A DNA stretch of 26,043 bases, from IMG/VR virus record IMGVR_UViG_3300042502_000314, positions 1-26,043 of that record. One strand, written 5' to 3'. The position numbers and the translations under genes are program-made. This stretch comes from a virus. Shown one piece after another: positions 1,253 through 17,958 of the stretch (positions are counted from its first letter, which is position 1; the number at the start of each line of letters is the position of its first letter). Below the pieces are notes generated by a model, which searched no databases, was not told the DNA's origin, and saw only the letters and a program-made list of their open reading frames with translations.

Positions 1253-3321
1253 CAAGCGGCCTCTTGTATGACGATGAAAACGGTCTGCTCAGGCTCGACA
1301 GTGAAGACGGTCTGCTCGGACTCGACAGTGAAGACAGTCTGCTCGGGCTCGACAGTGAAGGTGAGGCTCGGAGCGAAAATAACGAAATCGCTATAGCTGC
1401 CAAGCGCGCTTGCCGTTGCGACCAGCGTTAGGGCAGGAGCGACCGCCGCGCCGGAACCCTCGACAGGCTGGGCCGCAGTGGAACCGTCGCCCGATGCAAC
1501 CGGCTGCGATAGAGACAGCGCGGGGGCGACAGCGGCACCAGTGCCAGTGACACCAGAAACGACAAACTCGCCAGACGCGGATGCGACCGGAGCGTCGAGT
1601 GTCAGGGCTGGGGCGACAGCAGCAGCCGTGCCGCTGACCGGCGCGATATGTGCTGCCGCGCCGTCAGCCGTGGCGGATAGCGTCAGCGCGGGGGCCGTGG
1701 CCTCGGCGGTGCCGGTAACGCCTGCTGCGACAAAATCACCACTTGCGCTGGCAACAGGCGCGTCGAGCGTGAGGTTCGGCGCAACTGCGCTGGCCGTGCC
1801 TGTAACGCCTGAGACGACAAACTCGCCAGACGCTGCCGCCGCCGGATTGTCGAGGGTAAGGTTCGGCGCAACCGCCACGCCTGTGCCGGTGACGGGATCG
1901 ACGGAATAGTCCCCCGCCGCCGAGGCCACCGGAGCGTCGAGCGTCAGAGCCGGAGCGATGGCTTCGGCAGTGCCGGTAACGGCAGCGCCAAACGTGCCCG
2001 AGGCTGATGCGGTCGGCGCGTCAAGCGTCAGGTTCGGCGCAACCGCCGCACCTGTGCCGGTGACACCGGATACGACATACTCGCCGGAAGCCGCTGCGGT
2101 AGGCGCATCAAGCGTGATCGCAGGGGCGATAGCCTCGGCGGTGCCAGTGACACCGGCAACCGTATATGCACCGTCGCCCGCTGCGGTAGGCGCATCAAGC
2201 GTCAGGGCAGGCGCAACAGCATCGCCCGTGCCAGTGACAGCATCAACCGCATAAGCACCGGAAGCCGATGCAACAGGTGCATCAAGCGTCAGGTTCGGCG
2301 CGACAGCTTCCGCGGTGCCGGTAATGCCCGCGACCGTGAAAGCGCCGTCGCCCGCAGCGGTAGGCGCGGCAAGCGTCAGGTTCGGCGCAACCGCTGCACC
2401 CGTGCCAGTTACACCCGCGCCGCCAATCGCCGTAACCGTAAACGTGCCACTGCTGTTGAACGTGTGAACCGTGTCAGAGCCAACGGTCGTGACCGTCCCG
2501 CCCGTGGCGGTCATAGCAGCCGTGGCGTAGCGGAGGATGACTACGCCAGAGCCGCCTGCGCCGCCAAACCCTTGTCTTGCGCCGCCGCCACCCCCGCCCG
2601 TGTTGGCTGTGCCAGCGCCACCAGTTGCGTTGTCCGCGCCAGCACCGCCACCGCCGCTGCCACCTAGGCCAGAACGCCCAGCGCCGCCCCCGCCTGCATA
2701 GGTAACAGCCGAACCACTGATTGATGAGCTAACACCCGCGCCGCCATCACCGCCGATAGGCGCAATGGTTCCCGCGATACCGTCGCCGCCAACCGCCCCC
2801 GCGCCGCCCCCGCCACCAGCGATGAAGTTTTCATCTCCGGTGCCAAGATCGCCGCCCGCGTTGCCTTGCCCAGATGTGCCGGAACCGCCAACGCCGGTTG
2901 TGCGCCCCCCGCCGCCGCCCGAACCGCCCGAAGCGCCGTCAGGCGTATCCAGTGCGTTACCGCCGCCACCGCCAATAGCGATCAGGCTATTGAACGACGA
3001 GTTGCCGCCGTTGCCGCCACGGTCAGTGTAGCCCGAACTTGCAGGAACGCCGCCAGCGCCGACCGTGACGGTGTAAGAACCCGTCGCCGTGATGGATGAA
3101 GTGCCGGTGAGTAAGCCACCCGCCCCGCCACCGCCGGACGCAAGCCCGAAGTCACCCCGGCCACCCGCCCCACCGCCAGCGACGATCAGGTGCTGGACAG
3201 TAACAGCGCCAGACGCGGGTGTGGGGATCAATTCATCCGCGAACCAACCTTCCGGCAGAACCTTGGCGCCAAACCAAGCCTTCGGGTCTAGGGTTGCATC
3301 GAACGCACCAAAACGGGCCAT
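1252..3321 (-). CDS. Large glycine-rich, repeat-containing virion surface/adhesin-like protein (689 aa)
   Basis: There are three regions. Residues 1-45 are a non-repetitive head with several Trp residues. Residues about 46-265 are glycine-rich, with many GGGGG runs, and close with GSGVVILRY, the usual end of glycine-rich phage and surface domains that may fold as polyglycine-II sandwiches. Residues 306-655 are twelve tandem units of about 29 residues with consensus GTGxAVAPxLTLDAP, followed by about 14 variable residues ending in V-T. The C-terminus (655-681) has three copies of FTVEPEQTV. The gene follows the 72-residue ORF after three bases. Its position suggests a fibre, tip adhesin or capsid decoration; the exact role is unknown. 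Its composition makes homology searches prone to false hits. Confidence 0.85.
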   Translation of the reverse strand: MARFGAFDATLDPKAWFGAKVLPEGWFADELIPTPASGAVTVQHLIVAGGGAGGRGDFGLASGGGGAGGLLTGTSSITATGSYTVTVGAGGVPASSGYTDRGGNGGNSSFNSLIAIGGGGGNALDTPDGASGGSGGGGGRTTGVGGSGTSGQGNAGGDLGTGDENFIAGGGGGAGAVGGDGIAGTIAPIGGDGGAGVSSSISGSAVTYAGGGGAGRSGLGGSGGGGAGADNATGGAGTANTGGGGGGARQGFGGAGGSGVVILRYATAAMTATGGTVTTVGSDTVHTFNSSGTFTVTAIGGAGVTGTGAAVAPNLTLAAPTAAGDGAFTVAGITGTAEAVAPNLTLDAPVASASGAYAVDAVTGTGDAVAPALTLDAPTAAGDGAYTVAGVTGTAEAIAPAITLDAPTAAASGEYVVSGVTGTGAAVAPNLTLDAPTASASGTFGAAVTGTAEAIAPALTLDAPVASAAGDYSVDPVTGTGVAVAPNLTLDNPAAAASGEFVVSGVTGTASAVAPNLTLDAPVASASGDFVAAGVTGTAEATAPALTLSATADGAAAHIAPVSGTAAAVAPALTLDAPVASASGEFVVSGVTGTGAAVAPALSLSQPVASGDGSTAAQPVEGSGAAVAPALTLVATASALGSYSDFVIFAPSLTFTVEPEQTVFTVESEQTVFTVEPEQTVFIVIQEAA
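1279..1359 (-). repeat. Three tandem 27-bp coding repeats
   Basis: Three consecutive 27-base copies differ by only a few substitutions and encode FTVEPEQTV, FTVESEQTV and FTVEPEQTV near the C-terminus of the 689-residue protein. The unit length is a multiple of three, so gain or loss of a copy keeps the frame. Confidence 0.92.
1372..2406 (-). repeat. Twelve tandem ~87-bp coding repeats
   Basis: Units of 27-29 codons repeat from residue 306 onward of the 689-residue protein, with conserved GTG/GTA-x-A-V-A-P-x-L-T-L cores and variable ends; the twelfth is degenerate. Nine of the first eleven units are exactly 29 residues. The DNA copies have diverged at many third positions, so the array is not freshly amplified. 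Confidence 0.9.
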
Positions 3322-14159: not shown

Positions 14160-14734
14160 CGGACTTCCTTCAGGCTAAACTCAATCGGAAACACGCGATT
14201 GACATCAACGCCCCATGACCAATCACCGGGCAGCAAGCCTTCAACCTGCGGTTCGGCCAGATTGACCACCGTGTTATCCGCGAAGCTGTCGCGCAGCAGT
14301 TCGTTCAATTCGATGGTGGCCTGACCCGATCCGTTAGCGGTCGCGCCCACACCGACCGAATGCAGAAAGTGCTGCCCCGACTTGACCAGCGACAGCCAAA
14401 AACCCTCTTGAATGACATATCCGGGGGTCAGCCCGTCAATTGCAATCGTGCGCCCGGTCGTGACCGCACCATTGAGCAGCGGTGTCCCCGGCGTTCCCTG
14501 CGAATGCAACAGAGGCAACTTGACCCGCACGCCGCCCTGCTTTCCCGCAATCAGCCGCGCGACCATCACGCGCCCGTTTTCCGGCGTGTAGGGGCCGAAG
14601 GTGAACGCGACCGTGTAACGCCCACCTTTGCGCGGGATGTAGTCGTCAGACTGTATCCCGGTTTGCGTAAAGCCCGCATCGTTAAACGTGGCCTGAAAGC
14701 TGCCGGGAACGGCGAAGGTCGGCAGATCGATCAT
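14156..14734 (-). CDS. Distal/minor tail protein (192 aa)
   Basis: This beta-rich protein, beginning MIDLPTFAVPGSFQATF and ending WSWGVDVNRVFPIEFSLKEVR, directly follows the tape measure gene, where the distal tail protein or its partner is usually encoded. It contains a TPGYVIQEGFWLSLVKSG segment, but no domain I can name with confidence. Start and stop overlap neighbours as ATGA. Assignment to the tail tip rests on position. Confidence 0.75.
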   Translation of the reverse strand: MIDLPTFAVPGSFQATFNDAGFTQTGIQSDDYIPRKGGRYTVAFTFGPYTPENGRVMVARLIAGKQGGVRVKLPLLHSQGTPGTPLLNGAVTTGRTIAIDGLTPGYVIQEGFWLSLVKSGQHFLHSVGVGATANGSGQATIELNELLRDSFADNTVVNLAEPQVEGLLPGDWSWGVDVNRVFPIEFSLKEVR

Positions 14735-16725
14735 CGCACCCGCCTTGCCTGCCGCGCTGCCATCTGGCCTTGCGCCATTGCCGCGCCAGCGCCCGCGATA
14801 GCCGGGGCGGTCGCCGCGATCTGGTCATTGACAAAGGCCGTCAGGTTGCCGCTGCGCGGGTCAACCCCGACCGTTACGTGAACCCGCCCGCCCAGGTTAT
14901 CATTGGAATGAATGCGCCCATGCCCCGGCGGGGTGAACAATTCAGGGCCGCGCTCGCCTACAAGATAAGAGCGCCCAGCATTGACTTGCCCGCCGTTTGC
15001 CCGCGAACCCGACACTGGCGCGTTAAGTCGGCCCTGAAGCCCCGAACCGAACGCGCCCAAGCTGCCAAGCTGCATGAAAATATCAAGCACGCCGCCAAGG
15101 ATGCCGAGGAAATCGCCGTTGCGGATCGAGTTCGTTAAACCTTGGAGGCTCGACGTAATCCGCTGCGACATTTGCGCAAAACTGTCGGCGACAGAAACGG
15201 TCGTGATCTTGGACTTGCCTTGCAGTTCCTCAAGGCTCTTGCCGATGTCATCATTCGCGGCGACAACACGCTTTGCAGCTTCAAGCGGGCCTTGCGTGAT
15301 AAGGTCGCGCGAAACATCGACCTCACCGCTAATGCCCAAAATCCGGCGGCGATCTTCCGCGATCTGTTCGGCAGTGCGCTTGCTGTTCGCGCTCACCATC
15401 TCCAGTTGGCTCATTTGGCGGCGTGTGGTGTTCTCGGGGTATAGCTGCTCCAAGAGGTCAGCCATTTCGTCCCGCGTGTCCCTGATGCCAGCACTAGCGC
15501 GGCCTGCCGAAGCGCCCACCTTATCAAGATTGGCGGAAATGGCGGGAAGCCCAGAGGGGGCATTGACCGCAGCAGCCCCCTTACCCATTGCAGCCAACTC
15601 GCCCGCAATGTTGATTGACGACAGGCTAAGAGGGCCAGAACCAAGGCCAATGGCATCGCGTGAGGCCGACGCCCTGGATGCACCGCCGACGCGCTCGATC
15701 AAAGATGCCACAGTAGCAAGCGGATTAATTAGCAGGCGAGCGCGCTCATAAAGCCAGCTCATGCGCTCACCAGTGAGGCCAGTCGCATTAGACAGAACGT
15801 AGAATGCTGCACCACTGCTTTTCAGCCAACCACCAAGGATTCGCAGACCCTGAACAAAGTCTTGTGTGCTTTGCGCTGTCACATTGATGGTCTGCGCCGC
15901 ATTCGCCATCATCGTAATGAGTTCGGCGGTCACAGTGATGAGCGGGGTCAACTGCGGCAAGAGCTTCTGCCCAACCGCAACCTGCAATTCCTCGACCGCC
16001 GCATTCATGGTCTTGATCTGGTTTGCCGTGCTGCCGCTGGTGCGCTCAACATCGCCTTGAGCAAGGGCAAGCTGCTCTTGGATAATCGCAGCGCGGGCGA
16101 CGATCTTTTCCTGATCGGTCAGCACACCGTTGACACCAGCAAGACCCAACTCAGCGGCCTTCGCTTGCACTGCCGCTTCATTCAAGAACACGCCCACAGC
16201 GCGCAAAGGCTCAGCCTCACCGACCAGACCGGCAAACAGCTTTTGCTGCGCGACTTCGTTTGACAGGTTCTTGAAGCTGGCGAGGTCTTGCGTAAGAACC
16301 GCAAACTGCTTGGACATTTCCGCAGCCTGCGCGGGATCGAGCGCCTTGCCGAACAACTCCTGAAACGCCAGCGTGCCGCGCATAATCTCTTGCGTCGAGC
16401 GGCCTAGCGCGTTGCCGGTTTCTTCGGCCCACTTGCGAACATCGCCAGCCATGTTGCCGAACACAACATTGAAGGCGCTGCCCATTTCCTCGGCGTCAAT
16501 CGCGGCTTGCACCGACTTCTTGCCAAAGTCGAAAATGACGTTGCCAATGCCAGCAGCTACCAGTGCCACACCTACCTTTTTGAACGCACTCGACATGCCA
16601 ACCGCTGCGCCGTCCACATCGTCAGCAGTGCGCTTGGCCTGCTTGCCGACGCGATCAAGTTCGCGCTCACCTTGCTTCAACCCGCGCGTGTCGGCGTCAA
16701 GAACGAGGCGCGCAAAGTCGGTCAT
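14731..16725 (-). CDS. Tail tape measure protein (664 aa)
   Basis: The N-terminus (MTDFARLVLDADTRGLKQGE) has a coiled-coil start and a hydrophobic segment (about 51-67). A central region has more hydrophobic stretches (for instance LLPQLTPLITVTAELITMM). The C-terminal part carries GGQVNAGRSYLVGERGPELF, a segment typical of tape measure proteins (about 578-597). Tape measures set tail length; by the usual rule of about 0.15 nm per residue, 664 residues would fit a tail near 100 nm. The start overlaps the stop of the frameshift ORF (TTATGA), as expected downstream of tail chaperones. It is the second-longest frame in the window. Confidence 0.95.
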   Translation of the reverse strand: MTDFARLVLDADTRGLKQGERELDRVGKQAKRTADDVDGAAVGMSSAFKKVGVALVAAGIGNVIFDFGKKSVQAAIDAEEMGSAFNVVFGNMAGDVRKWAEETGNALGRSTQEIMRGTLAFQELFGKALDPAQAAEMSKQFAVLTQDLASFKNLSNEVAQQKLFAGLVGEAEPLRAVGVFLNEAAVQAKAAELGLAGVNGVLTDQEKIVARAAIIQEQLALAQGDVERTSGSTANQIKTMNAAVEELQVAVGQKLLPQLTPLITVTAELITMMANAAQTINVTAQSTQDFVQGLRILGGWLKSSGAAFYVLSNATGLTGERMSWLYERARLLINPLATVASLIERVGGASRASASRDAIGLGSGPLSLSSINIAGELAAMGKGAAAVNAPSGLPAISANLDKVGASAGRASAGIRDTRDEMADLLEQLYPENTTRRQMSQLEMVSANSKRTAEQIAEDRRRILGISGEVDVSRDLITQGPLEAAKRVVAANDDIGKSLEELQGKSKITTVSVADSFAQMSQRITSSLQGLTNSIRNGDFLGILGGVLDIFMQLGSLGAFGSGLQGRLNAPVSGSRANGGQVNAGRSYLVGERGPELFTPPGHGRIHSNDNLGGRVHVTVGVDPRSGNLTAFVNDQIAATAPAIAGAGAAMAQGQMAARQARRVR

Positions 16726-17069
16726 AAATCGCGCTCCATAGGTGACTTGCGCAAGGGGTTGCGATCAGCAACTTCCACGCAATAGGCTCGGGACATATCG
16801 GCGAGACAGGACGCCTCGCAGGGTGCCAGATCGGCTTGTGTGAGGCGGTTGAATGCCTCAATTTCGGCCCACTCAAGCGGGGCAGCGCCTGCCATGCTGT
16901 CACTGGCATATCCAAGCGCCTGCCATAGATCGGCCAGACGTTCGGTTTCTGGCAGTTCAGGCAGAGTTTCGCCAAACAGGGCAAGGCGGTTTTCTTCTTG
17001 CCCCTCGGGCTTCGCATAAAGCCACCCGACCTGCGCAGCGAAGGTTACGAGGCGCTGTCGGCTTCGGTA
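16722..17069 (-). CDS. Tail assembly chaperone, downstream frame, probably made by -1 frameshift
   Basis: In the -1 frame relative to the upstream chaperone, the reading frame is open from 17162 down to a TGA at 16724-16722. From the TAC at 17069 it encodes about 115 residues, including VGWLYAKPEGQEENRLALFG and WQALGYASDSMAG. No ATG, GTG or TTG lies in this frame upstream of 16888, so it is unlikely to start on its own. Position between the tail tube/chaperone and tape measure, and the ATGA link to the tape measure, match the lambda G/GT arrangement. The fusion would have about 252 residues if slippage happens at 17068-17075. Those bounds are inferred; the frame itself is seen. Confidence 0.75.
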   Translation of the reverse strand, partial: YRSRQRLVTFAAQVGWLYAKPEGQEENRLALFGETLPELPETERLADLWQALGYASDSMAGAAPLEWAEIEAFNRLTQADLAPCEASCLADMSRAYCVEVADRNPLRKSPMERDL

Positions 17070-17479
17070 AAAAGGCGGTGTTCTTCCGCAATTGCTGAAT
17101 TGACCTGCCCGAAGAACAGCGTGCCGGGGCCGCAGACTTTCAGGATGTTTTCGGCGGTCAGTTCAAGCGCAACACCGTCCCATTCAATGCCATCCCATTC
17201 GGCGACAGATGCCACCACCAGCGCGGCCATGGCCTGCTCTAGTTCGTCCTGAAACTTGGCAAGAACACCGTCTGCATCGCGGTCGCTGGTGCGTGCCATG
17301 CGCTCGCCCTTAAGCGCCTGCACACGCTCCACGCGCCGGAATGCGTCCATTACACCTTTAGCGCCCATGCCCTTGATGCGCAGCTTCGGGCTTTCGCCTT
17401 CAGGAATGCGCGGATGGCGCAAGGTGACCCACGAACCACGCTCAGACGCGGCTCGCAGGTCAAGCTTTGCAAAGTCCAT
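17045..17479 (-). CDS. Tail assembly chaperone (lambda G-like, upstream frame, 144 aa)
   Basis: This acidic, helical protein begins MDFAKLDLRAASERGSW, has an E/D-rich middle (RDADGVLAKFQDELEQAM, AEWDGIEWDGVALELTAE) and ends EADSAS. It lies between the tail tube gene and the tape measure, the position of gpG-type chaperones that coat the tape measure before tube assembly. It starts as TAATG on the tube gene's stop. The frame ends at a TAA at 17045 while a second frame stays open past it. Confidence 0.85.
   Translation of the reverse strand: MDFAKLDLRAASERGSWVTLRHPRIPEGESPKLRIKGMGAKGVMDAFRRVERVQALKGERMARTSDRDADGVLAKFQDELEQAMAALVVASVAEWDGIEWDGVALELTAENILKVCGPGTLFFGQVNSAIAEEHRLFTEADSAS
17068..17075 (-). 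other. Candidate -1 frameshift site
   Basis: On the minus strand the site reads CCTTTTTA with zero-frame codons CTT and TTT; slipping back by one base leaves full pairing for TTT and partial pairing for CTT. It is not a canonical X-XXY-YYZ heptamer, and GGC-CCC upstream is another weak candidate. It lies eight codons before the zero-frame stop, within the window 17045-17162 where both frames are open. Confidence 0.4.
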
Positions 17480-17958
17480 TACGGGAACGTCGCGTCAACA
17501 GTGGGCGAGTTCTGCTTGAAATTGACGCTGAACCCCTCGAACGAAGTGTCGTCCCCCTGCACTTCGACATAGCTGTGGAAGTAGCCTGTCGCATATTGCA
17601 GTTCATTGCCTGCTGCCGGCGCGCCGTCAGTGCCGGTTCCCCGCGTGATGCGGATCGAGCCGATAGCCGCAACCCCACCAGCATTTGCCAAAGTGCGGAC
17701 AGATGCCTGACCGGCATCGGAGGTCACAATGCGGAAGGTCGCCGTGCTGTCGTTCCCAGCCCCGGCACCTTTCACGCCGCGAGTGATCCCAGTCTGAAGG
17801 TCTGGCACATCAATGTTAGCGTGCGAAAAGCCGATCTGCGGAAGGGTCTGAACCCCATTGACCTTAGTCCAGGTCAGGGCCGCAAAGCCCGCTGCATTTT
17901 CAGTTGCCGGGGCTGCGGGAGCAACCCAGAAGGTTTTGCCAATGTGGGAACGGCTCAT
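17479..17958 (-). CDS. Major tail (tube) protein (159 aa)
   Basis: The protein begins MSRSHIGKTFWVAPAAPAT, has a beta-rich middle (VNGVQTLPQIGFSHANIDV, ATFRIVTSDAGQASV) and ends with FEGFSVNFKQNSPTVDATFP. Residues 100-145, with a GTGTDGAPAAGNELQYATGY loop and GDDTSFEG, fit tail tube proteins, which are small and beta-sandwich. It directly precedes the chaperone pair and the tape measure. The start overlaps the stop of the 46-residue gene as ATGA. Confidence 0.88.
   Translation of the reverse strand: MSRSHIGKTFWVAPAAPATENAAGFAALTWTKVNGVQTLPQIGFSHANIDVPDLQTGITRGVKGAGAGNDSTATFRIVTSDAGQASVRTLANAGGVAAIGSIRITRGTGTDGAPAAGNELQYATGYFHSYVEVQGDDTSFEGFSVNFKQNSPTVDATFP

Follow-up and report, generated by a model that had tools for sequence, protein, structure and literature searches.

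The minus strand of the 26,043-base IMG/VR virus record examined here (the window, taken over its whole length) carries a siphophage head-tail module comprising genes for terminase, portal, scaffold, major head protein, head-tail adaptor, head closure, tail terminator, major tail protein, two chaperone frames, tape measure, distal tail and fiber. The second chaperone frame overlaps the end of the first in the –1 register and begins without a start codon, which raises the question of how it is translated. A programmed –1 ribosomal frameshift, producing a G/GT pair of tail assembly chaperones, is very probably the answer, and comparative evidence supports both the translation of a –1 frame that lacks its own start and the location of the transition at a single slip site.

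Organization of the Chaperone Locus

The G and T ORFs are placed between the major tail protein and the tape measure genes, as follows:

17479–17958, minus strand: major tail protein gene, directly upstream of G (phrog_158, E 3.7e-8)
17045–17479, minus strand: G-like tail assembly chaperone ORF, 144 aa, TAA stop at 17047–17045
16722–17069, minus strand: T-like part predicted after the –1 slip, 115 aa, base 17069 being read twice
16893–16895, minus strand: earliest ATG in the –1 frame, at residue 59 counted from the slip; in the frameshift reading no gene starts here
14731–16725, minus strand: tape measure protein gene (phrog_1535 and others)

The start of G overlaps the stop of the major tail protein gene as TAATG. 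A TGA at 17165–17163 immediately precedes the –1 frame, whose open stretch (17162–16722) closes with a TGA (16724–16722) that overlaps the tape measure ATG (16725–16723) as ATGA. An earlier note on this DNA had reported the chaperone stop at 17045, the open –1 frame and the ATGA overlap, all of which were found as described; its statement that no ATG, GTG or TTG precedes residue 59 also holds, and only the position given for that codon, 16888, was off by seven. The lambda-like G/GT layout with a probable –1 frameshift proposed in that note is now strongly supported by comparative evidence. As in lambda gpG/gpGT, two overlapping ORFs lie between the major tail protein and the tape measure, and the second, lacking a start, would be entered when ribosomes shift by –1 shortly before the first one ends, giving short and long chaperone forms. 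Unlike lambda, in which the slip site is GGGAAAG, the site is here CCUUUUU, not a canonical heptamer. Such a tail-assembly frameshift is conserved among dsDNA phages (Xu, Hendrix and Duda 2004; reviewed in PMC5009743).

Conservation of the Layout in Related Phages

Near-identical copies of the locus (L002–L006) and diverged relatives were found in viral contigs. The relatives fell into the window's own clade A (L036, L037/L038, L007, L008/L009, L045 and L046) and a sister clade B (L041, L043, L044, L047, L085 and L086). The start-less T layout was kept in six diverged lineages, and in every member of both clades the T frame had no start covering its conserved beginning, with 60–75% identity to the T part of the window. 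In the aligned place, clade B carries a canonical heptamer, C_CCT_TTC or C_CCT_TTT. The same arrangement was present in distant cultured phages, namely Paracoccus Pkon1, Salicola CGphi29, Rhizobium RHph_X2_24, Pasteurella Pm86, Vibrio 230E39-1, 1.151.O, 1.119.O and phiHSIC, and Acinetobacter Effie and MD-2021a, with the following sites:

A_AAT_TTT: Salicola and Acinetobacter phages
T_TTT_TTC: Vibrio 230E39-1 and 1.151.O, and the Rhizobium phage
G_GGA_AAG: Pkon1
G_GGA_AAC: Pm86
G_GCT_TTT or A_ACT_TTT: a large Vibrio lineage (phiHSIC group)

Clade A and the phiHSIC group have no canonical heptamer, and in both of them heptamer positions 1 and 2 are a matching pair of bases ahead of U_UUU. Imperfect slip sites are therefore found in at least two lineages, as C_CTT_TTT in clade A and as G_GCT_TTT or A_ACT_TTT in Vibrio phages. 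In the annotated relatives retrieved, the T part had been entered as a hypothetical protein in its own right, and its start was often placed late. Genome contigs scanned with G as a protein query or with the T alignment yielded no relatives, and two loci retrieved by a DNA pattern search for slip site plus stem (L083 and L084) were chance matches, neither of which encodes a chaperone.

The two parts of the chaperone differ in their divergence between clades. Over window positions 16722–17479 and the homologous loci (L006–L047, L085 and L086), clade A and clade B were 26–31% identical in G and about 60–67% in T, the change occurring near the slip site. Such a contrast would follow from recombination at the site of the frameshift signal or from evolution of G at a much higher rate.

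Slip Site and Switch of Coding Phase

The site at which the reading frame would change is located near the end of G:

17069–17075, minus strand: slip site C_CUU_UUU, with the A-site tetramer U_UUU at 17072–17069, followed by A at 17068

It is contained in CCTTTTTA (17075–17068), read in the phase C-CTT-TTT-A, and C_CUU_UUU is invariant in 8 clade-A sequences. Pairwise substitutions among six clade-A lineages were counted by codon position. Upstream of the slip site, positions 1/2/3 had 141/98/324 substitutions in frame 0 (324 of 563 at the third position); from the slip site to the G stop they had 13/9/36 in frame –1 (36/58 at the third), and beyond the G stop 427/325/878, also in frame –1 (878 of 1630). 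The nine bases CGCCTTTTT had no substitution at all in these lineages, and a change at 17067 is Thr/Ile in frame 0 and silent (TAC/TAT) in frame –1. Judged by these patterns, both frames are under purifying selection, with the switch at the slippery site.

Moreover, codon identity was analyzed in the 47 G columns with an invariant residue, Met and Trp being left out. Identical codons were used in only eight of them, one Asp and the last seven, which include CGC-CTT-TTT, and the other conserved residues of G varied freely at synonymous sites. The chance that CGC, CTT and TTT were all fixed is, by position alone, ~3e-4, and since these three codons precede the transition, their fixation cannot come from coding in the second frame.

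The site does not have the X_XXY_YYZ form, as the P-site half of C_CUU_UUU lacks three identical bases. Only the canonical site class is excluded by this; the chaperone family is not, and sites of the +1 and –2 type have been reported in it as well (PMC5009743, PMC4276943). A Z_ZZN tetramer is present in frame, U_UUU at 17072–17069. As to an upstream Shine-Dalgarno-like stimulator, GGAAGAA is present upstream in the window and is not kept in L036 or L045.

The suggestions of the earlier note on this segment fared well. The –1 frame had been regarded as encoding a plausible protein, which agrees with its 60–76% identity in other contigs and its third-position bias; the canonical heptamer is indeed missing; and CCTTTTTA, offered as the best of weak candidates, proved to be the right place, being invariant in all clade-A relatives and coinciding with the phase switch. 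The idea of a new slip sequence stands in part: the heptamer is non-canonical, but it includes U_UUU, a tetramer that promotes shifting in E. coli (PMC4066793), and it falls within a motif class postulated for phage tail chaperones in PMC10885494.

Downstream Hairpin

A potential stimulatory element was predicted downstream of the slip site:

17062–17068, minus strand: 7-nt spacer ACCGAAG between slip site and hairpin, variable in sequence and constant in length in clade A
17026–17061, minus strand: putative stimulatory hairpin, 17061–17057 pairing with 17030–17026 and 17055–17052 with 17036–17033, loop at 17051–17037

The hairpin, with stems CCGAC/GTCGG and GCGC/GCGC and a 15-nt loop, was predicted in the window and in every clade-A relative by folding of the 47 nt downstream, and in L045 and L046 a longer segment favoured a different fold. 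Its nine core pairs were invariant in 8 sequences, among which no covariation in the core pairs was found. The folding energy was unremarkable in the window (z –0.9), the values for L007 and L008 being –2.4 and –1.6. A paired-site test was applied to T codons 1–15 as far as their residue is invariant: a paired third base was present in all codons with a single form (4, 5, 6, 12 and 14) and in none of the varying ones (1, 7, 9, 10, 11, 13 and 15) (p ~0.001, or ~0.05 without the doubly coding 5′ arm). The conservation of the 5′ arm has another possible cause, since it lies in doubly coding sequence. Considering the lack of covariation and the unexceptional energy, a role of the hairpin in stimulating the shift can be called likely, and no firmer than that.

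Proposed Mechanism and Alternative Readings

According to the frameshift reading, most ribosomes would translate G (144 aa) and terminate at 17047–17045, and a minority would slip back one base at C_CUU_UUU. In the A site, tRNA-Phe would re-pair fully, from UUU to UUU; in the P site, tRNA-Leu would move from CUU to CCU and re-pair at positions 1 and 3 only, the middle mismatch following from the lack in CCUUUUU of the XXX half of a classic heptamer. Reading would then resume with UAC CGA AGC and continue to 16722, yielding a 252-aa GT protein, with the hairpin 7 nt downstream of the slip site as a probable stimulator of the shift. By analogy with lambda, the G part would bind the tape measure protein and the T part would recruit tail tube subunits.

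A frame break of this kind could also be created by a sequencing or assembly error or by gene decay, and a single-base error would likewise leave a start-less –1 frame. This explanation is already refuted and its probability is negligible: the same break occurs at the same codon in all clade-A contigs, which are separate assemblies, clade B shares the layout, start-less –1 frames recur in isolated phages and both frames are under purifying selection. Alternatively, T might be a separate protein that needs no frameshift, its translation being coupled to that of G or reinitiated close to the G stop at a non-standard start codon. The tight packing of G, T and tape measure would suit such coupling, and a few relatives do carry starts: in L047 the G stop overlaps an in-frame ATG at T codon 9 as TAATG (3020–3024), which could give a free T there only, and L036, L043 and L044 have an ATG at T codon 18. 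Proper starts in relatives were what the earlier note had named as speaking against a frameshift; those found are sporadic and lie downstream of conserved –1-frame codons; they are not conserved themselves, and their positions would leave out the conserved N-terminal part. Within T residues 1–7 every relative lacks a start, and the window offers none of the three usual start codons until codon 59. Moreover, T codons 1–7, which lie upstream of the G stop, have the third-position bias of the –1 frame (36 of 58 differences), which argues against reinitiation at or after that stop, and the fixed CGC-CTT-TTT codons would be left unexplained. Reinitiation is very improbable.

If the frameshift is accepted, the question is which bases of the site are at work. 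Slippage of a single tRNA at U_UUU, with the upstream CC idle and kept by codon preference or chance, has a probability only a little short of even. In E. coli the tetramer suffices for shifting if a strong stimulator lies downstream, and it also serves IS elements (PMC4066793); U_UUY recurs in most sites of the family, the only element to do so, and CGC and CTT are common codons in the window phage. Against an idle doublet, the two bases before the U-run are matched in every non-canonical site seen (CC, GG and AA), and in the Vibrio phages GAG accompanies GCT and GAA accompanies ACT, which is what first-base re-pairing in the P site needs. The independent states behind this argument are few, the Vibrio set giving only two on the tree. 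A more far-reaching reading is a half-paired heptamer class, X_XYU_UUU, in which tRNA-Phe re-pairs fully in the A site and the P-site tRNA at positions 1 and 3 only. That it is a real and repeatedly evolved slip site, replacing C_CCU_UUY in the clade of the window and arising separately as G_GCU_UUU/A_ACU_UUU in Vibrio phages, can be put forward only tentatively, with a probability clearly below even.

Predicted Chaperone Proteins

The predicted GT fusion would comprise 137 + 115 = 252 aa, with the junction ...EEHRLF/YRSRQRLVTF.... In sequence, the chaperone of the window is similar to the Phage_TAC_18 and phrog_313 families. Homologues of G matched phrog_313, 'Tail assembly chaperone', in 10/11 of those aligned, and all 11 T homologues matched Phage_TAC_18 (PF23812; best E 5.4e-6). 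The T part of the window itself scored 22.3 bits, below the gathering cut-off of 27 bits, and is therefore considered a distant relative and not filed as a member. In the AlphaFold models (mean pLDDT 86 for G and 75 for T), one helix ends G and another begins T. Foldseek matched the G and T models separately to a shared set of full-length viral chaperones, among them A0A7L8ZK78 (232 aa), K4K660 of Caulobacter phage CcrColossus and A0A0K1LLW3 of Sansa, with weak E-values (0.03 to 5) and on parts of the targets that may be the same or separate for the two halves. The match probabilities were 0.99 and 1.00 for A0A7L8ZK78, and 0.47 and 0.16 for the T half on the CcrColossus and Sansa targets. A fold search of G against the PDB returned nothing significant.

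Relation to Known Frameshift Sites

As a –1 frameshifted G/GT pair of tail chaperones the system itself is ordinary; its slip site is a relaxed one, non-canonical yet of known or postulated motif classes, kept in its clade and paralleled in Vibrio phages. The U_UUU (Z_ZZN) tetramer promotes a –1 shift in E. coli when followed by a strong stimulator and serves IS elements (Sharma et al. 2014, PMC4066793); unlike such sites, the U_UUU described here belongs to a phage chaperone gene, in a conserved CC context and with a putative stimulator hairpin. PRFect (PMC10885494) postulated the motifs 'twofive' and 'twoonefour' from annotated phage tail-chaperone joins, and by its naming rule CCUUUUU is 'twofive' and the Vibrio GGCUUUU/AACUUUU are 'twoonefour'. 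These precedents, U_UUU in E. coli and the PRFect motifs, make this a site of a described kind. Whereas the PRFect motifs come from annotated joins with no comparative proof, conservation and the phase switch pin the site here. Runs of C followed by U in the phase CUU UUU are also found at CCCUUUUUUU of E. coli phage 9g (PMC4276943) and at CC_CUU_UUU of Trichomonas virus TVV1 (PMC3542737); both are read as –2 frameshifts, whereas the second frame here is –1. The CCTTTTT strings in the Smp131 and SPP1 papers are an unrelated repeat and a terminator.

Annotation tools restricted to XXXYYYZ miss such chaperones. Furthermore, CCUUUUU and CCCUUUY, in the same place of related genes, constitute a natural comparison for the extent of P-site re-pairing required by a bacterial –1 shift.

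Variation Around the Chaperone Genes

Other observations concern the neighbourhood of T. In many Vibrio phages (L088, L089, L093, L094, L096–L101 and L105) an opposite-strand ORF lies directly after T and before the tape measure, and in Rhizobium phage RHph_X2_24 a putative homing endonuclease gene (L090, 1342–1968) separates the T frame from the tape measure. Tape-measure relatives L060–L078 and Tetraselmis virus S20 have no detectable T relative, several having an ordinary start instead, and they therefore have no bearing on the slip site. In L060–L066, a tape-measure N-terminus of 63–67% identity is accompanied by an unrelated chaperone, the short second protein of which (MELGLGHLRMAPATFWRYS...) begins with a normal ATG, so the chaperone cassette appears to have been swapped against the same tape measure. 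Tetraselmis viridis virus S20 (L030, NC_020840.1), whose tape measure is 43% identical to that of the window phage over 40% of its length, carries a standard tailed-phage module, and its recorded host, a green alga, is probably not the true one.
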